Positions 46,527 to 51,822 of a DNA stretch of 64,000 nt are shown piece after piece (the first letter of the stretch is position 1; the number at the start of each line of letters is the position of its first letter). A model generated the notes under the pieces. It searched no databases. It saw only the letters and a program-made list of their open reading frames with translations, and was not told where the DNA came from. This DNA comes from Tsukamurella paurometabola DSM 20162 (GTDB lineage Bacteria > Actinomycetota > Actinomycetes > Mycobacteriales > Mycobacteriaceae): NCBI RefSeq assembly GCF_000092225.1, contig NC_014158.1, forward strand, positions 1,984,001 through 2,048,000, in the 5' to 3' direction. The position numbers and the translations under genes are program-made.

Positions 46527-48869
46527 ATGATGTCGCTGCCGTCCCAGGGATCCGACGCCGCGCGTACCCCCACGGCCGAGGCCGCTCCGCAGCCGCCGAA
46601 TCTGGAGCAGACGGGGTCCACCACCCGCCGGGTGCGGGCTCGGCTGGCACGCCGGATGACGGGCACCCGCAATCACGTGCGGCCCGTGCTGGAACCCCTG
46701 GTCGCCCTCCACCGCGAGGTGTACCCCAAGGCCGACGTGGCCCTCATCGAGCGCGCCTACGACGTCGCTGAGCAACGCCACGCCACGCAGATGCGGAAGT
46801 CGGGCGATCCGTACATCACCCATCCGCTCGCCGTCGCCACGATCCTCGCCGAGCTCGGCATGGACACCACCACCCTCGTCGCCGCGCTGTTGCACGATAC
46901 GGTCGAGGACACCGGATACAGCTTGGACCAGCTGACCGCCGAATTCGGCTCCGAGGTCGCGCACTTGGTCGACGGCGTCACCAAGCTCGACAAGGTGGCC
47001 CTCGGCAGTGCGGCCGAGGCGGAGACGATCCGCAAGATGATCATCGCGATGGCGCGGGATCCGCGCGTGCTGGTGATCAAGGTGGCGGACCGTCTGCACA
47101 ACATGCGCACGATGCGCTTCCTGCCTCCCGAGAAACAGGCCCGCAAGGCTAAGGAGACACTGGAAGTCATTGCGCCGCTGGCGCATCGACTCGGCATGGC
47201 CACGGTGAAGTGGGAGTTGGAAGACCTTTCCTTCGCGATCCTGCACCCGAAGAAGTACGACGAGATCGTGCGCCTGGTGGCCGATCGCGCACCGTCGCGC
47301 GATACCTACCTGGCGAGCGTGCGCGCCGAGATCAACGGCGCACTCACGGCGTCGCGGATCGTCGCCGATGTGCAGGGGCGGCCGAAGCACTACTGGTCGA
47401 TCTATCAGAAGATGATCGTCAAGGGCCGCGACTTCGATGACATCCACGACCTGGTGGGCGTACGCATTCTGTGCGATGAGGTGCGGGACTGCTATGCCGC
47501 CGTCGGCGTGGTGCACTCGTTGTGGCAGCCCATGGCGGGCAGGTTCAAGGACTACATCGCACAGCCCCGGTACGGCGTCTACCAGTCGCTGCACACCACC
47601 GTCATCGGCCCGGAGGGCAAGCCTCTGGAGGTGCAGATCCGCACCCGTGACATGCACCGCACCGCCGAATTCGGTATCGCGGCGCACTGGCGCTACAAGG
47701 AGACCAAGGGCAAGGGCGGCAAGGGCGGTTCCGATCTGTCCGAGGTCGACGACATGGCCTGGATGCGGCAGCTCCTCGACTGGCAGCGGGAGGCCGCGGA
47801 TCCCGGAGAGTTCCTCGAATCGCTGCGCTACGACCTCGCCGTCAAGGAGATCTTCGTCTTCACCCCGAAGGGCGATGTGATCAACCTGCCCGCCGGTAGC
47901 ACCCCTGTGGACTTCGCGTACGCCGTGCACACGGAGGTCGGTCACCGCTGTATCGGCGCCCGGGTGAACGGCCGGCTCGTGGCCCTGGAGCGCAAGCTGG
48001 AGAACGGCGAGGTGGTGGAGGTCTTCACCTCCAAGGCCGAGAACGCCGGCCCGTCGCGCGATTGGCAGTCGTTCGTGGTGTCGCCACGCGCGAAGGCGAA
48101 GATCCGGCAGTGGTTCGCCAAGGAGCGCCGTGAGGAGGCGCTCGAGAACGGTCGCGACGCGATCGCCAAGGAGGTGCGCCGCTCGGGCCTGCCGCTGCAG
48201 CGGCTCACCAATGCCGAGTCGATGGCGGGCATCGCCAAGGAGTTGCGTTACGCCGACGTCTCGGCGCTGTACACGGCCGTCGGTGAGCACCAGGTGTCCG
48301 CGCACACCGTGGTGCAGCGGATGCTGGAGCAGCTCGGCGGCTTCGAGGAGGCGACGGAGGAGCTGGCCGAGCGCAGTACCCCGTCCACCCTGTCGGGGCC
48401 GTCGACACCGTCCACCGATGTGGGCGTGCTCGTGACCGGTCAGCCGGGCGTCCTCGCGAAGTTGGCCAAGTGCTGCACCCCGGTGCCGGGCGACGAGATC
48501 GTCGGCTTCGTCACCCGCGGCGGCGGCGTGAGTGTGCATCGCACGGACTGCACCAACGTGGCGGAGCTGCGGAAGGAGCCCGAGCGCTTCCTGGACGTGA
48601 AGTGGGCCCCGTCGCCGTCGTCGGTGTTCCTGGTGGCGATCCAGGTCGAGGCCCTCGACCGGCATCGCCTGCTCTCGGATGTCACCAAGGTGCTGGCCGA
48701 CGAGAAGGTGAACATCCTGTCGGCATCGGTGACCACGTCTCGCGATCGGGTCGCGGTGTCGCGCTTCACCTTCGAGATGGGCGATCCGAAGCATCTCGGT
48801 CACGTACTGAACGTGGTGCGCAATGTGGAGGGCGTCTACGACGTCTACCGCGTGACCTCGGCCCAGTAG
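46527..48869 (+). CDS. rel: Bifunctional (p)ppGpp synthetase/hydrolase
   Basis: 780 residues (M. tuberculosis Rel has 790). Tandem ATGs at 46527 and 46530; the GGAGG at 46521-46525 fits the second better. Domains: hydrolase with His123-Asp-Thr-Val-Glu-Asp128; synthetase with Arg-Phe-Lys-Asp-Tyr-Ile-Ala-Gln-Pro and Tyr-Gln-Ser-Leu-His-Thr-Thr; TGS with Thr-Pro-Lys-Gly-Asp; the zinc-finger region with Cys-Cys-Thr-Pro; and a C-terminal ACT domain. Both sites look intact. It controls the stringent response. A hairpin (48994-49018) lies beyond its stop. Confidence 0.96.
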
Positions 48870-48993
48870 GCGAGAGCACCGTCCTTGCACGGGCGGGCGC
48901 GGACGCCTCCTGGCACGTGAAGGGCCCCACGGCGTTGGCGGATTCTAGGGATCGTCGCAACACCGAGCCTGGTAGGGCCCACCATACGGAAGT

Positions 48994-49018
48994 GCTCCGC
49001 TGAGTATTCCAGCGGAGC
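48994..49018 (+). terminator. Hairpin downstream of rel
   Basis: GCTCCGCTG (48994-49002) pairs perfectly with CAGCGGAGC (49010-49018) around a 7-base loop, followed by GCTTCT. It lies 125 bases after the rel stop and 48 bases before the promoter of the His-rich ORF. Confidence 0.65.
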
Positions 49019-49041
49019 GCTTCTGGGATCCGCGGTGCTCG

Positions 49042-49071
49042 TTGCATTACGTGCACGCATTCGCATATAAT
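49042..49071 (+). promoter_or_regulatory. Sigma-70-type promoter of the His-rich gene
   Basis: TTGCAT (49042-49047), an 18-base spacer and TATAAT (49066-49071), a perfect minus-10. The predicted transcription start at 49078-49079 coincides with the ATG at 49079, so the message would be leaderless. Consensus minus-10 boxes are rare in this GC-rich window. Confidence 0.7.
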
Positions 49072-49078
49072 CATGCCT

Positions 49079-49237
49079 ATGACGATGACGCGCACTGAGC
49101 ACCTGGCACACGACCACTCCGACCATGCCCATGGACCCGACTGCGGCCACGAGGCTATCCAGCACGGCGATCACGTGGACTACGTCCACGATGGGCACCG
49201 TCACGCTCCGCATGGTGACCACTACGACGAGCACTGA
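49079..49237 (+). CDS. Small His-rich (metal-binding) protein
   Basis: 52 residues, 14 of them His plus one Cys, arranged as His-x-His and His-x2-His runs: Ala-His-Asp-His-Ser-Asp-His-Ala-His-Gly, Cys-Gly-His, His-Gly-Asp-His-Val-Asp-Tyr-Val-His-Asp-Gly-His-Arg-His, and a closing Asp-Glu-His. Small proteins of this style occur in actinobacteria near zinc-uptake or zinc-regulated genes and are often labelled zinc permease without experimental proof. Zinc, nickel or copper buffering is the likely role. ATG 49079 (or 49073, in frame) lies at a perfect promoter. The ORF lies between rel and the transposase, inside the putative mobile unit. Confidence 0.8.
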   Translation: MTMTRTEHLAHDHSDHAHGPDCGHEAIQHGDHVDYVHDGHRHAPHGDHYDEH

Positions 49238-49290
49238 TCCAAACGCCGCACGATGTCCTACGCTCGCGATACGAGCGCGGGGCATCGGTG

Positions 49291-50652
49291 CTAGCGAGCT
49301 GTAATGAGGTCACGCAAACGCTCGGCTGGTGTCTTCCAGCCGAGCGTTTTGCGTGGTCGGCGATTGAGTTTCTGGGCGACGAGTTCGAGGTCTTCGCGGC
49401 CGTAGGCGCTCAGGTCGGTGCCTTTCGGGAAGTACTGGCGCAGTAGTCCATTGGTGTTCTCGTTGCTTCCGCGCTGCCAGGGTGAGTGGGGATCGCAGAA
49501 GTAGACCGGAACCCCGGTGGCGACCGTGAATTGTTGGTGGGCGGCCATCTCGCAGCCCTGGTCCCAGGTCAGTGATCCCCGCAAATGTCCTGGGAGATTT
49601 CCGATCAACGAAACCAGCACGTCACGGACTTCTTCGGCGGAGTGGCCGCCAGGCAGGTGGCCGAGCATGACGTAGCGGGTGGAGCGTTCGACGAGTGTGA
49701 CGATCGCGGACTCGCTGCGAGTACCGACGATCAGGTCACCTTCCCAGTGGCCTGGCACGGCTCGATCCTCGACCTCGGCGGGCCGGTCGGAGATCATCAC
49801 CATCTTGTCGACGAATCGTCTGGTGCGATGTTCGGCGCGGCGGTGGGGCTTGCGGCGGGTGCGGCCCGTTCGCAAGGCCATCGCGACTTCACGGCGCAGG
49901 CCGCCCCGAGCCTGAACGTAGATCGACTGGTAGATCGTCTCGACGCTCACACGCATACTTTGCTCGTTGGGGAACTCGGTCACTAGAGAGTGACATATCT
50001 GCTCTGGGGACCACTGGTCCTGCAGTTTGTTCTCGACGTAGTCCCGCAGCGGACCGGCCTGGGCCAGTTTCGCTGGCTTCGGCCGTGACCGGCTCTTTTC
50101 CCACCTGCGGTGCGCCTGATGCGGGCGATAGGCACCGTTGACAACGCCAGCGTCGATCTCCCGTTTGATCGTCGATGCTGGCCGGCCGAGCTCCCTGCCG
50201 ATGGCCCGCAGCGATGCCCCCTCGCGGCGCATGTCAGCGATAGTTTCCCGCTCGGTCAAGGTCAGAAACCGTGGATGCAGGCTCCGCTGCCTCGGTGCAT
50301 CCGATTCCACTCCGACCCACGTGACCGCACCTGTCAGGTAATCGATCTTGCGTCCGTCGGGATGGATACGAGTATCGCCAATCTTGCGCACCCCTCGATC
50401 CCAGTCCCCAGCAGTGCGAACGCTGACACCGACACGCCGAGCAGCGTCCGGCCGCAGCACCCCCTCACGGCGAAGCCGGTCGTACTCGGCCCGGCCGGGA
50501 TGACCACCATTGCTAGTGCTCCCACGTCCACGCAGGCCCGCCCTGCGCATCCATCCAAACGCCGTATTCACTGTCACCCCCGCCGCCCTAGCAGCGACCG
50601 ACACATTGCCGTCAGACACGTCCAATTCCTTGAAGAACCTCTTCTTCACCAT
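49291..50652 (-). CDS. IS30-family transposase
   Basis: About 453 residues from the ATG at 50652 (a GTG at 50664 in frame is inside an inverted repeat and less likely). Two N-terminal helix-turn-helix regions are visible (Val-Ser-Val-Ala-Ala-Arg-Ala-Ala-Gly-Val, and the later IS30-type Leu-Thr-Glu-Arg-Glu-Thr-Ile-Ala-Asp-Met). The DDE triad is intact: Asp in His-Trp-Glu-Gly-Asp-Leu-Ile-Val-Gly, Asp in Leu-Thr-Trp-Asp-Gln-Gly and Glu in Ser-Asn-Glu-Asn-Thr-Asn-Gly-Leu-Leu-Arg-Gln-Tyr-Phe-Pro-Lys-Gly. No frameshift is seen, so it looks active. Confidence 0.95.
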   Translation of the reverse strand: MVKKRFFKELDVSDGNVSVAARAAGVTVNTAFGWMRRAGLRGRGSTSNGGHPGRAEYDRLRREGVLRPDAARRVGVSVRTAGDWDRGVRKIGDTRIHPDGRKIDYLTGAVTWVGVESDAPRQRSLHPRFLTLTERETIADMRREGASLRAIGRELGRPASTIKREIDAGVVNGAYRPHQAHRRWEKSRSRPKPAKLAQAGPLRDYVENKLQDQWSPEQICHSLVTEFPNEQSMRVSVETIYQSIYVQARGGLRREVAMALRTGRTRRKPHRRAEHRTRRFVDKMVMISDRPAEVEDRAVPGHWEGDLIVGTRSESAIVTLVERSTRYVMLGHLPGGHSAEEVRDVLVSLIGNLPGHLRGSLTWDQGCEMAAHQQFTVATGVPVYFCDPHSPWQRGSNENTNGLLRQYFPKGTDLSAYGREDLELVAQKLNRRPRKTLGWKTPAERLRDLITAR

Positions 50653-50663
50653 CGGTGAATGCA

Positions 50664-50706
50664 CGATCCCCGCAACTCCTTGCTATCCGCGGTGTTGCGG
50701 GGATCG
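50664..50706. repeat. 13-bp inverted repeat at the 5' side of the transposase gene
   Basis: CGATCCCCGCAAC (50664-50676) and GTTGCGGGGATCG (50694-50706) are exact inverted complements with a 17-base spacer, just upstream of the transposase start. The right arm is part of the outer repeat 50690-50736, and a related GGATCGTCGCAAC lies at 48948-48960. This could be a transposase-binding site or terminal repeat end. Confidence 0.8.
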
Positions 50707-50712
50707 CTAGAA

Positions 50713-50730
50713 CCCACGGTTCGCCGTGGG
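50713..50730 (-). terminator. Hairpin downstream of ppiB
   Basis: CCCACGG and CCGTGGG form a 7-bp stem with a 4-base loop (TTCG on plus, CGAA on minus), 18 bases past the ppiB stop. It belongs to the outer repeat 50690-50736; in the left copy (48920-48965) the second half of the stem is lost. Confidence 0.6.
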
Positions 50731-50748
50731 GCCCTTTCGTTGCGGAGC

Positions 50749-51822
50749 CTAGGAGTTGAGCACCATCGAGGTGATGTTGACGCCCGGATCGGCGGGCGCG
50801 CCGTCGGTCACAGGCTCCCCCGGCTTCGGTGCGGGTGCGCCGGGCTTGGGCTTGATGCCCTTCTTGGCGATAGCCTGGAGCACCTTGAGCCCATCAGGGG
50901 TGGTGTTGCCGATCACCGAATAGTTCGCGGGCAGCGTGGTGTCCTGGTACACGAGGAAGAACTGGTTCGCGCCCGTGTTGGACTGGCCCGATTGTGGCGA
51001 GTTGGCGTTCGCCACCGCGATCGTGCCGGCCGGGTAGATCACCGTCGGCGGCATTCCCGGCTGGGACGGAGCCGCGGCGCCTTGCAGGAACGTCGGCGTC
51101 TCGTCCGGTGAGGTCCAGAGGGGGCCGCTGCTGCCGGTGCCGGACGGGTCGCCGCACTGAAGCACGTAGAGACCGCTCTTCTTGTCCGCGCCGGGCGTGG
51201 CGGTCTCCCGGTGGCAGATCGTGTTGTCGAAGTACTTCGCATTGATCATGGTGATGAAGGCCTGCACATTGCACGGGGCCTTCGACCGGTCGAACTCGAA
51301 TCCGATGGTGCCCTGGTTGGTTGCGATCGACCCCGCCAGAGTGCCGGTGTTGGGCACGTCCTTGCCGTCGGGCTTGGCGACCGACTTGTTGCGATCGGCA
51401 GCCTTATCCAGGGCGGGCAGGATGGCCTCGACCTCGGCGATCTGATCCTCGGTCTGCTTGATCTGAGCCTCGGTGGCGGTTCGCTGCTCTGGTGGCAGAG
51501 CGCCCATCTGCGCGCGCTGCTTCGCGATCTGGTCGCGCGTGGTCTTGATGTTGTCCCGCAGCGTCGTGGCCTGATCCGGACGGTCGGGGTATGTGCACTG
51601 GGTGTGCAGCGACTTGTACCGGTTCTCCGCGCCGACGCGGAGGGGGGCCCGCGGGCCCTGGGGAAGCCAGATGTAGCAGCCCGCGGCGACGAGCGCGACG
51701 ACCACGGCGGCGCTGATGCCGATCGCCGTGATCTTGCGCTTGCGGGCCTCGGCCTCACGCCGCTCGTTCTGGCGCGCGAGTTTGTCTCGGGCTGCCTGAC
51801 GGCGCTCCTCATTGCTCGGCAC
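50749..51822 (-). CDS. ppiB: Membrane-anchored cyclophilin-type peptidyl-prolyl isomerase
   Basis: 357 residues. A basic N-terminus (Arg-Lys-Arg-Lys) and a transmembrane helix (about 31-53) are followed by a charged, coiled-coil-like stretch (about 85-140, Lys/Gln/Glu/Ala-rich) and the cyclophilin fold: Gly-Thr-Ile-Gly-Phe-Glu-Phe-Asp, Cys-Asn-Val-Gln-Ala-Phe, Cys-His-Arg, Leu-Gln-Cys-Gly-Asp-Pro, Asn-Gln-Phe-Phe-Leu-Val. The last parts show the Gly-x-Asn-Gln-Phe-Phe signature. Two Cys near the active site may form a disulfide. Likely folds exported proteins. Corresponds to Rv2582 by position. Confidence 0.92.
   Translation of the reverse strand: MPSNEERRQAARDKLARQNERREAEARKRKITAIGISAAVVVALVAAGCYIWLPQGPRAPLRVGAENRYKSLHTQCTYPDRPDQATTLRDNIKTTRDQIAKQRAQMGALPPEQRTATEAQIKQTEDQIAEVEAILPALDKAADRNKSVAKPDGKDVPNTGTLAGSIATNQGTIGFEFDRSKAPCNVQAFITMINAKYFDNTICHRETATPGADKKSGLYVLQCGDPSGTGSSGPLWTSPDETPTFLQGAAAPSQPGMPPTVIYPAGTIAVANANSPQSGQSNTGANQFFLVYQDTTLPANYSVIGNTTPDGLKVLQAIAKKGIKPKPGAPAPKPGEPVTDGAPADPGVNITSMVLNS

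Follow-up and report, generated by a model that had tools for sequence, protein, structure and literature searches.

Between the convergent host genes rel and ppiB of Tsukamurella paurometabola DSM 20162, an IS30-type transposase and a very small histidine-rich gene are enclosed by two imperfect inverted repeats. This arrangement raises the question of whether an insertion sequence (IS) has taken up a passenger gene and moves with it, or whether a transposase simply landed beside a gene that was already resident at the junction. The stretch of DNA that we analysed, referred to here as the window, comprises 64,000 nucleotides (contig NC_014158.1, positions 1,984,001 to 2,048,000), and its features are collected in Table 1.

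Table 1. Features of the rel/ppiB interval, in window positions, and motif sites elsewhere, with counterparts
Feature	Position	Strand	Basis
Host gene rel (RelA/SpoT family)	46527..48869	+	Family-library match
Left arm of host rel/ppiB terminator hairpin; target site, outside element	48920..48933		Joined flanks fold; GC hairpin of relatives
Target duplication, left copy GTT	48934..48936		Copy and flank comparison
IS30-family element, 1782 bp	48937..50718		Ten copies (nine identical, one differing at a single base); 3-bp duplications
Terminal inverted repeat, transposase-downstream end	48937..48965	+	Repeat finder, sisters, copy comparison
Passenger segment	48966..49290	+	Absent from 13 closest sister copies fetched
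Strong hairpin between element end and passenger promoter	48987..49025		Fold, -31.1 kcal/mol
Promoter/operator-like motif shared with chromosomal homologues; holds -10 box TATAAT (49066-49071), ends at ATG	49059..49078	+	Motif discovery, matrix scan
Gene of the His-rich peptide (52 residues, 14 of them His); second in-frame ATG at 49073	49079..49237	+	ORF translation, homologues
Hairpin between the two convergent genes	49251..49287		Fold, -25.9 kcal/mol
IS30-family transposase, 457 aa	49291..50664	-	NCBIfam transpos_IS30 2.2e-88; Pfam rve and HTH_38
Perfect 14-bp inverted repeat in transposase 3' end, TTTT after it on passenger's strand	49316..49349		Repeat finder, fold
Inverted repeat pairing upstream end with transposase start region	50664..50706	-	Repeat finder
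Terminal inverted repeat, transposase-upstream end	50690..50718	-	Repeat finder, sisters, copy comparison
Target duplication, right copy GTT	50719..50721		Copy and flank comparison
Right arm of host rel/ppiB terminator hairpin; target site, outside element	50723..50736		Joined flanks fold
Host gene, cyclophilin type (ppiB)	50749..51822	-	Family-library match
Motif sites at CDF gene and at response regulator/CtaG-type gene	L213 (G000:C1:3121251), L191 (G000:C1:98445); counterparts L193, L214, L203		

Limits and copies of the mobile unit

The protein between the repeats had been called an IS30-type transposase in the first-pass annotation, and the family libraries confirmed an IS30-type DDE transposase, with NCBIfam transpos_IS30 covered over its whole length at a score of 296 against a cut-off of 80 bits. 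A search of the PDB with the transposase gave no match at E values up to 0.01. The inverted repeats had been described as 48920-48965 and 50690-50736 with about 36 of 46 columns alike, and our alignment gave a very similar figure, 38 identical columns of 47 with one gap. The repeat finder resolved them into two pairs, the outer of 15 nt at 100% identity and the inner of 26 nt at 85%, the latter with like ends in sister elements. IS30-family elements have terminal inverted repeats of about 20-30 bp and short target duplications of 2-3 bp. As proposed ends of the element, the repeats held up in their inner parts, 48937-48965 and 50690-50718; the outer 15-bp arms were ruled out, as their sequence differs from copy to copy and is therefore host DNA.

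The genome consists of two contigs totalling 4,479,724 bases, of which the first has 4,379,918, and a query with the whole unit (window positions 48900-50760) matched ten places in it. Reading of the flanks gave exactly the same limits for all ten chromosomal copies, namely a mobile unit of 1782 bp at 48937-50718 in the window. Nine copies were identical and the tenth (L008) carried one changed base. Because the transposase and the His-rich gene occur together in every one of the ten, the passenger belongs to the moving unit, and the presence of the whole unit at ten sites excludes a chance origin. The suggestion that this IS carries a His-rich passenger thus proved correct, as did the expectation that the same block, with both of its ends, would be found at other sites.

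Perfect 3-bp target duplications (GTT, GTT, GGG, GTC, AGT, AGT, ACT, and CAG) flanked eight of the ten copies. In the remaining two the triplets were swapped: left and right read CAC and ATA at L003, and ATA and CAC at L007.

The empty junction in relatives

When the flanks of the window copy were joined with one duplication omitted, they formed a perfect hairpin between the convergent rel and ppiB genes; the window copy is inserted in the loop of the rel/ppiB terminator. A search with the ppiB end over 16 Tsukamurella genomes covered 15 others, 14 of them readable in that rel and ppiB both lay in the stretch (L157 had no rel there). In these 14 the rel-ppiB distance was 76-225 bp, far below the length of the element; the distances for L147 and L160 take in some coding sequence because the protein alignments ended early. 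The block had been expected to be missing from this junction in relatives, and neither the element nor the His-rich gene was present at any of the 14 readable junctions. The opposite expectation, that relatives lacking the transposase would keep both the His-rich gene and the two repeats, was not borne out: none of the 14 had the gene, and what 11 of them had was a strong GC hairpin similar to the outer arms (it was lacking in L158, L159, and L160).

An extra segment between transposase and end

From the transposase stop to the downstream end the element measures 325 bp, versus 6-8 bp in the 13 closest sister copies fetched, which have transposases at least 67% identical (L061-L066, L141, L142, L235, and four of genome G450). 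The closest of these sisters came from a Gordonia rubripertincta plasmid, a Rhodococcus fascians plasmid, Saccharopolyspora, and G450. The last holds at least four copies of a passenger-free sister element and may hold more, because the phylum search scored the best four candidates per genome. Passenger-free copies were found among these sisters and not among the ten copies of the element itself.

Over a wider set of 84 IS30-type loci evaluated by script, the end lay within 60 bp of the stop in 48 (nine of these values, -7 or -10, come from a generic alignment and are possibly spurious) and farther away in eight (L084, L093, L094, L106, L108, L113, L116, and L120), while 16 were unresolved and 12 not scorable. 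A pattern scan placed the end close to the stop in L093, one of the eight, and in L114, one of the 16. Inspection of L094, L113, L116, and L120 revealed that L113 and L116, from Synechococcus sp. SynAce01, are identical 1812-bp copies with a true 353-bp tail in the same slot and no clear gene in it. Because of this tail, the slot between stop and end tolerates extra DNA elsewhere too, and extra DNA at this position need not be selected cargo.

On plasmid NZ_CP065038.1 of Leifsonia sp. ZF2019 (L144), a partly annotated IS30-type transposase stretch is followed, some 2.85 kb downstream, by a repeat resembling an element end, and the interval so bounded would take in several genes, including an acyl-CoA desaturase. 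This is perhaps another passenger-bearing unit, or else the ends are unrelated.

The histidine-rich peptide and its family

Read from the ATG at 49079, the passenger gene encodes the 52-residue protein with 14 His that had been reported, together with one Cys; the start at 49073 gives 54 residues. The transposase, on the minus strand, and the peptide gene are convergent. The family libraries returned no match naming the peptide, the PDB none at E values up to 10, and the plasmids none at 1e-5, where a low-complexity filter may hide one. Homologues were present in 59 of 249 genomes of the order and in four of 16 Tsukamurella genomes, the element's own host included in both counts. They make up an actinobacterial family with the pattern CGHxxxxHGDHVDYxHDGHxHxxHxxHxDEH, whose shared His, Cys, and Asp positions the passenger matches over about 45 residues. 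The passenger has a single unit and is 77-82% identical to the full-length Tsukamurella homologues, whereas the other members read were all found outside IS30 elements, many of them comprising two units or more.

In the host genome all ten matches to the gene lay within element copies, and none outside. The three other Tsukamurella genes are chromosomal and stand away from the rel-ppiB junction; by eye, the gene of G256 lies beside argS, and that of G255 is in a different place. No similar transposase was found near the chromosomal homologues at the best 32 distinct loci, with flanks of about 1.5 kb in 29 of them. These loci shared no conserved neighbour in general, and three (L018, L027, and L029) shared one; in L027 it has a GTPase-like motif, which by eye we take to be COG0523/CobW. 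In G252 (L059/L281, identical over 5888 bases) about 34 codons of a chromosomal His-rich gene are left, with a prophage adjoining, as if the prophage attachment site lay inside the gene.

DNA similarity between the passenger and its homologues was confined to the coding region or nearly so. Comparisons with two chromosomal homologues gave dN/dS values of 0.088/0.79 and 0.072/1.13, and dS was saturated for the third. This constraint may largely predate capture by the element. The composition of the peptide suggests that it probably binds metal, and a function in metal buffering would be in keeping with this.

Promoter, shared motif, and hairpins

A consensus promoter had been proposed for the passenger. 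Its -10 box is indeed a perfect TATAAT, but at -35 there is only TTGCAT, at a spacing of 18 bp, and a sigma-70 scan of 48860-50760 found no promoter. The -10 box does fall within a motif, ATGCGCATaTgcTAATGTaT, that we learned from 31 regions upstream of chromosomal homologues, leaving out the truncated L059 and the element itself. The log-likelihood of this motif was 144, compared with 62-71 in six shuffled sets that were run with fewer starts and iterations, and it was present in 17 of the 31 regions and absent from 14. The promoter of the element scored 16.7 for the motif (p of about 0.001 from 2000 shuffles), and with a matrix built from the 17 sites, the element's site was the best in the 64-kb window on either strand, at 18.3 bits as against 15.7 for the best site outside the element.

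A pattern search of 12 genomes returned more matches than the reversed control in 11 and none in G256; eight of the 12 had been chosen for the motif at their His-rich gene, and that part is therefore circular. Non-circular counts against the reversed control were 4 versus 0 in the host genome (G000), 4 versus 0 in G261, and 3 versus 1 in G255. The element's own site is more than two mismatches away from the strict pattern and so lies outside these matches. One of the four matches in the host genome precedes a cation diffusion facilitator (CDF) gene (Pfam Cation_efflux, 7.5e-39), and similar sites were found before the same CDF gene, identified by eye, in G261 and G255; another lies with a response regulator of OmpR type on one side and a CtaG-type gene on the other. 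It is possible that the motif marks a metal regulon of Tsukamurella. Among 20 loci, no ArsR-type gene had a strong motif in its own promoter, and the best match was again the CDF site. Mycobacterial CDF exporters are controlled by ArsR-type repressors, SmtB with ZitA in the sections of PMC7174638 drawn on here and KmtR in those of PMC7055735, and these metal-induced systems resemble the present one in that the motif here also precedes a CDF gene. They have a named repressor, whereas the present system is known from its motif sites; the SmtB site in M. smegmatis itself is not identified in the portion of PMC7174638 used. By analogy, an ArsR-type repressor might act at the passenger promoter.

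The passenger is flanked by two hairpins, and a third, at 49316-49349, is built from the last codons of the transposase, with a counterpart in all eight sisters folded. The three together would insulate the convergent genes from each other.

Target choice and a probable rearrangement

We compared left and right flanks with mispaired flanks for 28 elements, ten from the host genome and 18 sisters. Eighteen of the 28 pairs scored above 95% of mispaired flanks, 16 of 18 among the sisters and two of ten among the host's copies. Clearly palindromic flanks were seen in L001 and, with flanks exchanged, in L003, and the remaining eight copies had only GCGGCCCC-like arms as judged by eye. In the sisters, which include copies L294, L297, L299, and L300 of G450, the insertion point was mostly (16 of 18) the loop of a GC-rich palindrome resembling a terminator. 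The sister group thus tends toward terminator-like hairpins, and the burst of the present element was less strict. IS30 itself prefers near-palindromic hot spots, as part of PMC9333248 describes.

Copies L003 (G000:C1:2802193-2803991) and L007 (G000:C1:1610757-1612552) are oppositely oriented at 2.80 and 1.61 Mb. The left flank of L003 joined to the right flank of L007 made a perfect palindrome by eye, and the left flank of L007 joined to the right flank of L003 made a single open frame of 333 codons across the join. Because their target duplications are exchanged, these two copies probably recombined with each other, inverting a stretch of about 1.19 Mb with the window inside it; a misassembly at identical repeats would give the same picture.

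Origin and role of the passenger

A block that moves with both of its ends, duplicates its target, and holds an extra gene with a kept promoter motif is most readily explained as a transporter IS of the IS30 family, that is, a recently active insertion sequence with a single acquired passenger gene, and we consider this explanation likely, a presumed metal role of the passenger included. The small peptide would serve in the cytosol to buffer or chaperone Zn, Ni, or Co. Its gene would be transcribed from a promoter of its own, probably a leaderless one, with the -10 box inside the operator for a metal-responsive repressor that would also govern a CDF metal exporter, and transposition would then have lifted the gene to ten copies. 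In a bolder version, the IS acquired a metal-buffering gene of the host along with the metal-responsive operator, supplanted the copy in the chromosome, and increased the dosage to ten, with metal stress favouring spread of the element; we regard this version as rather doubtful. If it were true, the passenger would be a portable regulon member on a very small passenger-bearing IS.

Two other arrangements can be set aside. A His-rich gene resident between rel and ppiB, with the transposase landing beside it, would agree with the chromosomal location of the family in the other genomes read, three Tsukamurella among them, but the three Tsukamurella genes stand elsewhere, and the ten gene-bearing copies together with the 14 empty junctions rule it out, leaving it a negligible chance. 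Equally negligible is a composite transposon with the gene between two IS copies: a transposase search of the genome gave ten matches, one per copy, each unit has one pair of ends, and the passenger is not flanked by two IS copies, which rules this arrangement out as well.

Two further readings concern what the passenger does for its carrier. It could be a hitch-hiker: a harmless piece of host DNA, caught in the slot before the end and tolerated by the element, that benefits neither host nor element. The tail without a clear gene of the two Synechococcus copies in the same slot fits this, and the ten copies have arisen too recently to carry a readable trace of selection; the open frame, the low dN/dS against homologues (which mostly reflects the time before capture), and the kept promoter motif speak against it. 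We hold this to be a real possibility, at somewhat less than an even chance. We regard it as improbable that transposition is regulated by the passenger, whether through its transcript, for instance an RNA antisense to the transposase, or through its peptide. The two genes are convergent, and antisense control of transposases is known (from the part of PMC9330008 consulted), but there are two hairpins, one in the gap that separates the genes and one, followed by TTTT on the passenger strand, in the 3' end of the transposase gene; this second hairpin recurs in sisters that have no passenger, and the chromosomal homologues read have no transposase nearby. In our preferred reading, the transporter IS, the passenger is a captured member of an otherwise chromosomal family, and its promoter keeps a motif shared with chromosomal homologues.

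Relation to known insertion sequences

The element resembles the IS30 family (IS30, IS1655, and ISBlo4) in its transposase, end sequences, and small duplications, and to some extent in near-palindromic targets (clear in 16 of 18 sisters and two of ten own copies), and differs from it in having a passenger gene between transposase and end. IS30 moves by copy-out-paste-in through an IR-IR junction, and a 2-bp staggered attack is described for it (both in part of PMC9333248), as opposed to the 3-bp duplication of the present element. As in a transporter IS (tIS), the passenger lies inside both ends and moves with the element. Passenger-bearing ISs are already known in other families, also with metal-type genes, according to the sections of PMC6305408 used here: ISPst2 (ISL3) and ISArsp12 (IS481) each carry an ArsR-type regulator and a permease. 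The present element is like these two in being a single IS whose ends enclose a transposase and a passenger of metal-homeostasis type, and unlike them in its transposase family and in having a single 52-residue gene. In the same sections, the sole IS30-family element, ISArsp15, has no passenger. Among the partly covered open-access literature searched, we found no description of an IS30-family element with a passenger gene, which is weak evidence, nor, in the open-access literature searched, of a histidine-rich passenger gene on any insertion sequence. The words 'insertion' and 'IS element' are absent from the main text of the T. paurometabola DSM 20162 paper (PMC3156402).

This locus offers a clean and small case of an insertion sequence becoming a gene carrier: the cargo is a single 52-residue gene, the copies number ten, and relatives have empty sites. 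The capture of a passenger in the slot between transposase and end becomes testable with this element, as does the question of whether a passenger pays for its carrier. The element also brings into view an uncharacterised family of actinobacterial His-rich peptides with a common promoter motif, and a group of transposases mostly placed in terminator-like hairpins.
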